Source: Haloglomus litoreum (lineage in GTDB: Archaea; Halobacteriota; Halobacteria; Halobacteriales; Haloarculaceae). From it: 64,000 bases of DNA. The translations under genes were made by a program, and so were the position numbers. The stretch covers positions 2,294,001 through 2,358,000 of the forward strand of contig NZ_CP119988.1 of assembly GCF_029338515.1 (NCBI RefSeq). The letters are read 5' to 3'. How positions within the stretch are numbered: the stretch's first letter is position 1; the number at the start of each line of letters is the position of its first letter. A model generated the notes under the pieces. That model had not been told where the DNA came from, made no database searches, and saw nothing but the letters and a program-made list of their open reading frames with translations. Shown here one piece after another: positions 45,511 to 51,669 of the stretch.

Positions 45511-46617
45511 ATGACCGACGACGGCCACGACGATGGGCAGGAGGACGGCCACGGACAGGAGACTCCTGACCACGACGGGCAGGAGGACCACGCGGACACA
45601 CCGGAGCACGACGACGAGCCACCGCGCGAGGAGTTCAGCCACGACCCCGTCTCGCACGTCGACGTCGGCGCCGGGATGAGCGTGGCCGACCTCGTCGCAG
45701 CGTACGGCGACGGCGGCATCGGCGCCGCCGACCTCCACGAGGCGGTCGACGTGACGGCCGCGATGTTCGACGACGACGTGACCACGCTGATGGGGCTGGC
45801 AGGGGCGATGGTGCCGGCCGGCATGCGTGCGCTCGTCGCGGACCTGATCCGGGACGGCCACGTCGACGCGCTGGTCACGACGGGCGCGAACCTCACACAC
45901 GACGCCATCGAGGCCATCGGCGGGAAGCACCATCACGGCCGGGCCCACGCGCCCGACCGGAGCGAGCGCGAACACGACGAGCAGCTCCGGGACGAGGGCG
46001 TCGACCGGATCTACAACGTCTACCTCCCGCAGGAGCACTTCGCTGCGTTCGAGAGCCACCTCCGCGACGAGGTGTTCCCGGAGCTGGGCGAGGAGGTCGT
46101 CTCCATCGCCGCGTTCACGGACGCGCTGGGCGCGGCGAACGCACGCGTCAACGACCGCGAGGGCATCGAGGAGGACGCCGGCATCGCCGCGGCCGCACAC
46201 GAACACGACGTGCCGATCTACGCCCCCGCGGTGCAGGACTCCGTCCTGGGGCTGCAGGCGTGGCTCCACTCGCAGGTGTCGGCCTTCTCGCTGGACGCGC
46301 TCTCGGACATGAGCGACCTGAACGACCTTGCGTACGAGGCCGACGAGACGGGCGCGCTCGTCGTCGGTGGTGGCGTCCCGAAGAACTACGTGCTGCAGAC
46401 GATGCTGGTGACGCCCGGCGCGTACGACTACGCCGTCCAGCTGACGATGGACCCGCCCCAGACCGGCGGACTCTCGGGTGCGACACTGGACGAGGCCCGG
46501 TCGTGGGGGAAACTGGAGAAGGAGGCCCGGAACGTCTCCGTCTACGCGGACGCGACCATCACGCTCCCGCTGGTCGTGGCGGGGGCGCTGGACCGGCTGG
46601 AGCCGGCCGACCGGTGA
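45511..46617 (+). CDS. dys: Deoxyhypusine synthase
   Basis: 368 residues. Transfers an aminobutyl group to a lysine of aIF5A. After an unusual Asp/His/Gly-rich N-terminus (about 1-45), the core has VDVTAAMFDDDVTTLMGLAG, LVTTGANLTHDAIEAIGGKH, AHEHDVPIYAPAVQDSVLGL and the catalytic-Lys motif GGGVPKNYVLQT, followed by LSGATLDEARSWGKLEKEAR. All family motifs are intact. A TATA-like GTTCAAACG lies near 45481-45489, about 27 bp before the ATG. The acidic small gene downstream at 46743 is on the same strand. Confidence 0.95.
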   Translation: MTDDGHDDGQEDGHGQETPDHDGQEDHADTPEHDDEPPREEFSHDPVSHVDVGAGMSVADLVAAYGDGGIGAADLHEAVDVTAAMFDDDVTTLMGLAGAMVPAGMRALVADLIRDGHVDALVTTGANLTHDAIEAIGGKHHHGRAHAPDRSEREHDEQLRDEGVDRIYNVYLPQEHFAAFESHLRDEVFPELGEEVVSIAAFTDALGAANARVNDREGIEEDAGIAAAAHEHDVPIYAPAVQDSVLGLQAWLHSQVSAFSLDALSDMSDLNDLAYEADETGALVVGGGVPKNYVLQTMLVTPGAYDYAVQLTMDPPQTGGLSGATLDEARSWGKLEKEARNVSVYADATITLPLVVAGALDRLEPADR

Positions 46618-46742
46618 CACCGCCGACCCTCCGACCACCCGGGGTCGCGGGACCGCCGGGGCCGTCGGGACCGCCGGGGTGGGGCGCAGGTTTCCGGACT
46701 GTCGTCACAACTATCACCCGGGTTCCCCAACGCTCGGATGTC

Positions 46743-49786: not shown

Positions 49787-51001
49787 TCAGTAGGCGTCGC
49801 GCTCGACCAGCCGGTCTGCGATGCGCTGGGCACCGCGGGCCGCGGCCGTGACCGGGTCGTCGGGGGCGACGACCGTCACGTCGCGCTGGAGTTCGTCCTC
49901 GAGCCGGGTCTCGAACGCCTCGACCAGCCCCGGGATGCAGGTCATCCCGCCCGTGAGGACGACCGGGTTGTCGAGTGCGAGGTTGTACGTCTTCATCGAG
50001 TCGTTGGCGAACTCCGAGAGGAAGGTGTTGGCCAGCTCGTCGACGGCCTCGTCCACGTACTCGTCGACGGCCTCCATCACGCTCCACTCGATGGTGAACT
50101 CGTGGCTGCCGCCGCCGGGCTGCTGGATGACGTCCGTGAACGGCTCGAACTCCTCGAAGTCGGCGTGCTCCTCCTTGTACTCGCGGGCGGTCGTCCCGTC
50201 GATGTTGACCCGGCCCTGGGTCTCCTCCTCGACGAGGTTGGCGATGCGGCGGTCGACCTCGTTGCCGGTGACCGCGCCGGTGGCGAAGTGCGAGAGCTGC
50301 TCGCCCCGCCGGTAGGCCGACGCCTCCAGGTTCGTCGAGCCGAGGTTGACGCCGACGAAGATGGACTCGATGGCCTCCAGCCCGTCGCCCATCGCCGGGA
50401 TGGCGCCGCACAGCGACTCGGGGTACGAGCGGATGGCCCGCTCGCCGACACCGCTCTCGTCGATGACCCGCTCCAGGTTCCCGAGCCCGCGTTCGTTGTC
50501 GATACTGGGGATGGCGTAGACGACGACGCTGTCGGCGTCGACGGCGTTCGAGGCGACGACCTCCCGGAAGAACTGGCCCGCAAGGTCCGCCCGTTCGTCG
50601 TCCTCCGGCAGCCCGGAGCGGAGCATGAACTCCACCTCGTCGGGGTACTCCGTCGCGGCCTCCTCGCCGTACAGCAGTCGCTCCTCCCCGGTGAGCGCGT
50701 CCTCGTAGGTCGCGAGACAGGTCAGCGTGGTCGTCGCCTCGGTCGACCCCCCAGCGCCCGGGTACACCAGCACCGTCCGCGTGCTGCCGAGTTTGACCCC
50801 GACCGGAGCCGGTGTGCCCCCTTCCACCGTTCCGGCGGGCTCCGACCCGGTATCGGCGCCCGAGCGGGTGCCGGACCGGGAGTGCTCCCTGTCGTCAGCT
50901 GGGGGCTCGGGCTCGCCCGCTTCCCCACGGTCCCAGTCCATCTCCTCTCCGTCCTCCTCATCCTCCGCCGCTCCCACACCGTCCTCGGGTTCGGTGGCCA
51001 T
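49787..51001 (-). CDS. Salactin-like actin homologue (MreB/Hsp70 fold)
   Basis: 404 residues. After a long acidic disordered N-terminus (about 1-65) the actin fold starts with PVGVKLGSTRTVLVYPG (phosphate 1), IFVGVNLGSTNLEASAYRRG (phosphate 2) and VVLTGGMTCIPGLVEAFETR (adenosine loop). These are the ATPase motifs. The acidic N-tail and the rest match haloarchaeal salactin, a dynamically unstable filament protein involved in cell growth and DNA distribution. It has its own TATA-like CTATTTACC (minus strand, 51023-51031), 27 bp before the ATG. A FlaD/E-domain gene lies just upstream on the same strand. Confidence 0.83.
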   Translation of the reverse strand: MATEPEDGVGAAEDEEDGEEMDWDRGEAGEPEPPADDREHSRSGTRSGADTGSEPAGTVEGGTPAPVGVKLGSTRTVLVYPGAGGSTEATTTLTCLATYEDALTGEERLLYGEEAATEYPDEVEFMLRSGLPEDDERADLAGQFFREVVASNAVDADSVVVYAIPSIDNERGLGNLERVIDESGVGERAIRSYPESLCGAIPAMGDGLEAIESIFVGVNLGSTNLEASAYRRGEQLSHFATGAVTGNEVDRRIANLVEEETQGRVNIDGTTAREYKEEHADFEEFEPFTDVIQQPGGGSHEFTIEWSVMEAVDEYVDEAVDELANTFLSEFANDSMKTYNLALDNPVVLTGGMTCIPGLVEAFETRLEDELQRDVTVVAPDDPVTAAARGAQRIADRLVERDAY

Positions 51002-51064
51002 ACCTGGGGGTGGACTGAGTACGGTAAATAGCTCCGCACTATCCCGGAATAGCCCGGTTCTTTA

Positions 51065-51451
51065 TCACTCAGGGTCCGTCTCCGCCCACTCTGCCAGCCG
51101 GGCGATGCGTGCGAGGCTCCGCATGTGGTGGGCGCGGTCGAGCTGGTCGAAGCCACCAGGCTCGTACCCGACACCCAGCAGGTGGTCCTCCAGTCGGTCG
51201 CGCACCTCCGGGGTGATCCACCCCATGAAGCGGTAGTACTCCAGCGCGGCGACGGCGCCCTCGAACCCGCCGGCGTCGACCAGCTCCGTCAGCCAGTCCA
51301 GCACGAACACCCGGGTCTCCGGGCTCGTCGGCAGCTGTTCCAGGTAGGGGAGACTGACTCCCAGGTTCCCCCCAGCCCCCGGTTCCGACGTGGAGGATGC
51401 CCGCAGCTCGCGGAGTTCGTCCACGTCGTACTCCAGCGGGTCGACCCTCAT
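51065..51451 (-). CDS. Stand-alone FlaD/E (ArlCE-type) domain protein
   Basis: 128 residues. LPYLEQLPTSPETRVFVLDW, LTELVDAGGFEGAVAALEYY and RFMGWITPEVRDRLEDHLLG (about 50-108) match the archaellar FlaD/FlaE domain, normally a part of the archaellum cytoplasmic ring that docks chemotaxis adaptors. Here it is a single small protein, not within an archaellum operon, and is followed after 63 bp by the salactin-like gene on the same strand. ATG at 51451 has GTTATCACC (minus strand, 51474-51482) about 27 bp upstream, so it is probably leaderless. Confidence 0.82.
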   Translation of the reverse strand: MRVDPLEYDVDELRELRASSTSEPGAGGNLGVSLPYLEQLPTSPETRVFVLDWLTELVDAGGFEGAVAALEYYRFMGWITPEVRDRLEDHLLGVGYEPGGFDQLDRAHHMRSLARIARLAEWAETDPE

Positions 51452-51669
51452 CGAGCGGTGATGCGTCCCGGGTGGTGATAACGGACCGGGCCACCCCGGT
51501 TCGATTCGGCCCGGTCCGCGACGTCGCCGTAGCAGCGTGTCGACGACGGCCATCGCGACGCGCCCGGGGAACCGTGGATACGTCCGGAATCCGTCGCGCA
51601 ACCGACCACCCCGCAGAGAATGGTCCCAGGAACACAGATAAATCCCCACATCTCTCGATAAAATCCGAT

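Follow-up and report, generated by a model that had tools for sequence, protein, structure and literature searches.

The window analysed here is a stretch of 64,000 nucleotides from contig NZ_CP119988.1 of Haloglomus litoreum. Two adjacent genes on its minus strand are considered, one for a small ArlD-type protein and, directly downstream from it, one for the actin-like protein salactin. The layout is as proposed in the initial annotation, with a 128-residue FlaD/E-domain protein encoded 63 bp upstream of a salactin-like gene on the same strand. The features are as follows:

49787..51001, minus strand: salactin, actin-like, 404 aa, assigned by PF25229 and NF053533; acidic N-terminal tail, then core at residues 64-399
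51002..51064, minus strand: intergenic gap of 63 bp between arlD and salactin, read from the sequence
51025..51030, minus strand: TATTTA, putative TATA-like element about 29 bp before the salactin ATG, read from the sequence
51065..51451, minus strand: ArlD-type FlaD/E-domain protein, 128 aa, short linker; PF04659 domain at residues 35-120; N-terminal motif DPLEYDVDELR
51476..51481, minus strand: TTATCA, putative TATA-like element about 30 bp before the arlD ATG, read from the sequence
46603..46686, no strand: junction 3-5 kb from the pair, at which the collinear sequence closes in the window (blastn)

The downstream product matches PF25229 over the whole domain (E=3.6e-177, Pfam) and reaches 584.6 bits with the NCBIfam salactin equivalog NF053533, for which the cut-off is 400. 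It shows no deviation at 106 near-invariant columns, defined as at least 97% identical in 78 haloarchaeal salactins. By the Pfam and NCBIfam cut-offs, family membership is certain, and the predicted product of 49787-51001 is a full salactin.

The 128-aa protein carries the FlaD/E domain: Pfam gives PF04659 (Arch_fla_DE) 70.5 bits, for a cut-off of 21, at E=1.2e-19. Its N-terminus, MRVDPLEYDVDELREL, contains the motif P-x-x-Y-D-x-x-E-L-R, which is also present in 91 of 105 pair proteins. ArlD proteins have this motif in common, also where they come from an arl cluster of a Halobacterium-like genome. It is lacking in 19 of the 23 proteins tagged ArlCE; the other four had been tagged wrongly by the script and are ArlD proteins from Halobacterium-like arl clusters. 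In a tree of 104 rows and 122 columns, the window protein lies on a long branch on the ArlD side, to which the ArlD from those clusters also belongs, and apart from ArlCE, although the deep split is weakly supported. Several of the rows tagged OTHER from genera g22, g58 and g67 are salactin-adjacent proteins, for which the first fragment of a split domain hit was used. With this motif and the PF04659 domain, the protein is of the ArlD type and not an orphan domain. The FlaD/E domain of the initial annotation is therefore retained, and its description as a stand-alone domain is replaced. A PDB sequence search gave no relative of the window salactin or the ArlD-type protein at the thresholds used. 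An AlphaFold2 model of the ArlD-type protein built from two sequences is all-helical and of low confidence (mean pLDDT 46).

Distribution and neighbourhood of the pair in haloarchaea

Both proteins were searched for in 394 genomes of the class and their positions compared, and 80 further salactin loci were searched with a FlaD/E profile. A pair was counted where a FlaD/E gene directly precedes salactin, on the same strand and at a distance of no more than 800 bp. By this definition, at least 121 of the 149 genomes of the salactin table, in 29 of 32 genera, have arlD and salactin as a pair. This count is a lower bound, as G195 was misread through a split alignment and G251, G334 and G369 were left unassigned. 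Because it recurs so widely, the arrangement in the window is not due to chance. The initial annotation had held that absence of the pair from relatives would speak against it; the pair is instead kept across haloarchaeal families. The same recurrence rules out an orphan domain unique to the window's genus. A search of relatives' loci with the window ArlD protein itself reached only one close relative (L003).

The two genes are apart in the Halobacterium-like genus g18 (8/8 genomes), in g9, in g12 and in part of the genomes of g4, g6, g7 and g8. Where ArlD is unlinked in g6 and g8, it nests in the tree with the linked ArlD of its own genus, and is therefore the same gene at a different location. 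On the salactin tree, adjacency needs about nine changes, and the split state is scattered. This pattern fits an ancestral pair that would have been separated several times. Halobacterium, on which the published salactin study was centred, is one of the few genera with a split pair; that study reported poor synteny (PMC10746226).

Other arrangements were also seen. In L044 (G111), ArlD is not directly upstream, and another FlaD/E gene lies 20 bp downstream of salactin on the other strand. In L096 and L101 (G118, G270), ArlD is likewise not directly upstream, and an ArlCE-type gene lies about 1.1 kb upstream of salactin. Salactin homologues from non-haloarchaeal members of the phylum (L202-L216) have no FlaD/E gene nearby, and no such gene was present near the methanogen salactins in the stretch examined.

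Grouped by upstream neighbourhood, 71 pair loci form eight groups with two or more members and thirteen singletons, mostly along genus lines; the singletons may partly reflect missed ORFs. Since the pair is found beside several unrelated sets of upstream genes, it appears to travel as a unit. Most pairs stand apart from motility genes: in the sequence examined, 68 of the 74 pair loci lack any che or arl gene. A different arrangement is seen in g34, g83 and some g22 genomes, where cheY-cheC-cheD-arlD-salactin follow one another within or beside the arl cluster. The pairing outside archaellum loci thus describes the window but not every genus. The salactin in the che/arl cluster of genus g34 genomes is diverged (L086:14380-15444). 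Genome G076 has two salactins, one adjoining ArlD and one elsewhere (L251, L255).

For Haloferax volcanii, a paper gives 'ArlD/HVO_1202' as a single transcription unit (PMC13286277). The species encodes a member of the salactin family and, given the gene order in related genomes (L086), HVO_1202 is inferred to be its salactin homologue.

The spacing of the genes varies. In the window, each start codon is preceded at about 29-30 bp by a TATA-like hexamer (51030-51025 and 51481-51476), as would fit leaderless promoters. The arlD stop and the salactin start share a 4-nt ATGA overlap in genera g20, g26 and g15, and the genes of g44 are spaced by +2 nt; co-transcription and translational coupling are implied in these genera. 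With overlapping genes in several genera, a promoter for each gene, as suggested by the two TATA-like elements of the initial annotation, may hold for the window but is not general. In many other genera, the genes are 60 bp or more apart.

The pair in genomes with and without an archaellum

The window genome is assembled in one contig of 4.70 Mb. It encodes only one PF04659 protein, and a search of the genome gave no archaellin, CheF, CheD or ArlCE. As initially claimed, the pair lies outside any archaellum locus, and a role of the window ArlD in an archaellum motor of its own cell is not borne out by this gene set.

Within the genus, two archaellum-bearing genomes (G394, G395) have the locus arlA-arlA-arlA-arlF-arlG-cheW-like-cheY-cheC-cheD-arlCE-arlH-arlI, about 190-220 kb from their own arlD-salactin pair. 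Besides the ArlCE of that locus, both encode a second ArlD paralogue, which lies 5 kb from the pair; the archaellum-less G000 and G392 have kept the salactin-side ArlD alone. At the junction, G394 and G395 contain a segment of about 2.6 kb with the second ArlD paralogue (L078:7284-8006) and a VWA-domain gene (Pfam), which is missing in the window and in G392. In L078:7284-9731 (G394) and the matching part of L079 (G395), this long-linker paralogue and the VWA gene are flanked by genes for deoxyhypusine synthase and a small acidic protein. Genome G198 of the same genus (99% complete) gave no salactin, FlaD/E protein or archaellins. That the pair might be what is left of an archaellum locus was considered and rejected: in G392 it has no arl or che genes around it, and even in G394 and G395 it lies apart from the arl locus.

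The dN/dS of ArlD is 0.22 between the archaellum-less G000 and G392, compared with 0.25 between the archaellum-bearing genomes of the genus. The salactin-side ArlD has remained under purifying selection after the loss of the archaellum.

Across the 394 genomes, salactin was found in 189, FlaD/E in 305 and archaellin in 302. All 189 salactin genomes have a FlaD/E protein. The search missed FlaD/E in 7 of the 302 archaellin-positive genomes, which is a guide to its miss rate. Among the 92 archaellin-less genomes, nine have both genes, none has salactin alone, one has FlaD/E alone and 82 have neither (Fisher p = 1e-11, a value that ignores relatedness, the genomes not being phylogenetically independent). 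The genome with FlaD/E alone, G363, encodes a protein of ArlCE type in the tree. The pair is adjacent in eight of the nine genomes with both genes, and these belong to genera g1, g13, g4 and g51. At least four lineages have therefore kept the pair without an archaellum. The ninth, G383, has a FlaD/E gene on another branch of the tree. Its salactin (G383:C8:776553-777211; L253, L256) consists of two partial matches in different frames, covering residues 181-400 only, and looks like a decaying gene. Archaellin-less genomes of g13 (G184, G279, G341, G364) each contain two to four matches to salactin, of which one is paired with a diverged ArlD.

Conversely, 122 archaellin-bearing genomes have no salactin, so the role of ArlD in motility does not need salactin. 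The archaellin-negative genomes also rule out that joint presence is a simple by-product of motility. There is good support for a functional coupling between ArlD and salactin that does not depend on swimming.

Two other explanations of the pairing bear on these data. The genes might stay together merely through co-transcription, with ArlD in archaellum-less genomes a dying passenger. Overlapping genes are indeed hard to separate, and the ArlD copies of g1 and g13 are divergent. The wide spacing in many genera, the intact pair in different neighbourhoods, the dN/dS after archaellum loss and the retention in four genera all speak against such inertia, which is regarded as improbable.

Alternatively, salactin could be a motility accessory that positions or segregates archaellum motors or chemosensory arrays and is for that reason encoded with arlD; the archaellum-less cases would then be relics. 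ArlD is a motor component, some genera have the pair within or beside che/arl clusters, and the presence of salactin correlates with that of archaellin (180/189 salactin genomes have archaellins). Nevertheless, the motility of Halobacterium salinarum is unchanged on salactin loss (PMC10746226), the pair is under purifying selection after the archaellum and chemotaxis genes have gone, and few pair loci contain a che or arl gene in the sequence examined. This explanation is considered rather unlikely, although it has more in its favour than operon inertia.

A proposed role of ArlD beside salactin filaments

The preferred reading is that arlD and salactin form a conserved functional unit, in which ArlD, besides its place in the archaellum motor and switch ring, would be a partner protein of salactin filaments. 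It is given a probability of roughly one half. Where swimming has been lost, as in the window genome, ArlD would be retained solely for salactin.

As the best single mechanism, ArlD would serve at the cell pole as a dock or nucleator for filaments of salactin. In H. salinarum, these filaments grow from the cell poles (PMC10746226). In H. volcanii, ArlD/FlaD-GFP forms foci at the poles, and small foci at times move from pole to pole (PMC6509185, PMC11588486). Moreover, ArlCDE may contact the polar cap (PMC8978795). The polar mechanism is thus drawn from localisation in two different species, and it would involve a physical interaction of ArlD with salactin, polar docking and a role in DNA partition. 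In its full form, ArlD would have two roles, as scaffold of the archaellum motor and, independently, in docking or nucleating the salactin filament at the pole. One pole organiser would then serve both swimming and DNA partition by an actin, and the pair in archaellum-less haloarchaea might be a minimal dedicated filament system. This extended version is more tentative than the functional unit itself.

In archaellum-less species, ArlD and salactin might instead serve another polar machine, e.g., a type IV pilus, with ArlD as the scaffold ring for a related ATPase. ArlCDE is thought to be the cytosolic scaffold of a type-IV-pilus-like motor (PMC8978795), which lends the idea some plausibility; at the pair locus itself, no pilus genes were recognised. 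There seems to be little chance that this explanation is correct.

According to its authors, salactin is the first archaeal actin with described in vivo dynamics; no partner was named, and the genomic context was reported as uninformative (PMC10746226). The partnership proposed here would provide salactin with a specific, conserved candidate partner which has already been studied as GFP fusions in H. volcanii. What anchors the filaments at the poles thereby becomes a directly testable question. ArlD, known as a motility protein, would gain a likely second function.

Both protein families are already known, as are, in kind, operons of an actin with a partner. That an actin is paired with a protein of the motility motor, and that this pairing does not depend on motility, appear to be unreported. 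In agreement with the initial annotation, which knew of no description of such a link, no paper in the set searched contains both 'salactin' and 'archaellum', and the word actin is absent from a census of archaellum-associated genes.

The window salactin resembles that of H. salinarum (PF25229, NF053533; PMC10746226) in its family over the full length, its acidic N-terminal tail and its near-invariant positions, all of which are kept. It differs in that it adjoins arlD; in Halobacterium-like genomes the gene is not beside arlD, and archaella are unmentioned in the published study. The window ArlD shares the N-terminal motif and the FlaD/E domain with the ArlD (FlaD) of haloarchaeal archaella (PF04659; PMC6509185, PMC8978795). 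The latter has a longer linker and about 150-190 aa, compared with 128 aa in the window. Unlike the ArlD of archaella, the window protein is found in a genome without archaellin, ArlCE, CheF and CheD.

Actin-plus-partner operons include ParM/ParR, Alp7A/Alp7R and crenactin/arcadins. As in these systems, an actin-like polymer is encoded with a small dedicated partner. The arlD-salactin pair, for whose partner protein Pfam gave no DNA-binding domain, differs from them in that the partner is a protein of the motility motor.
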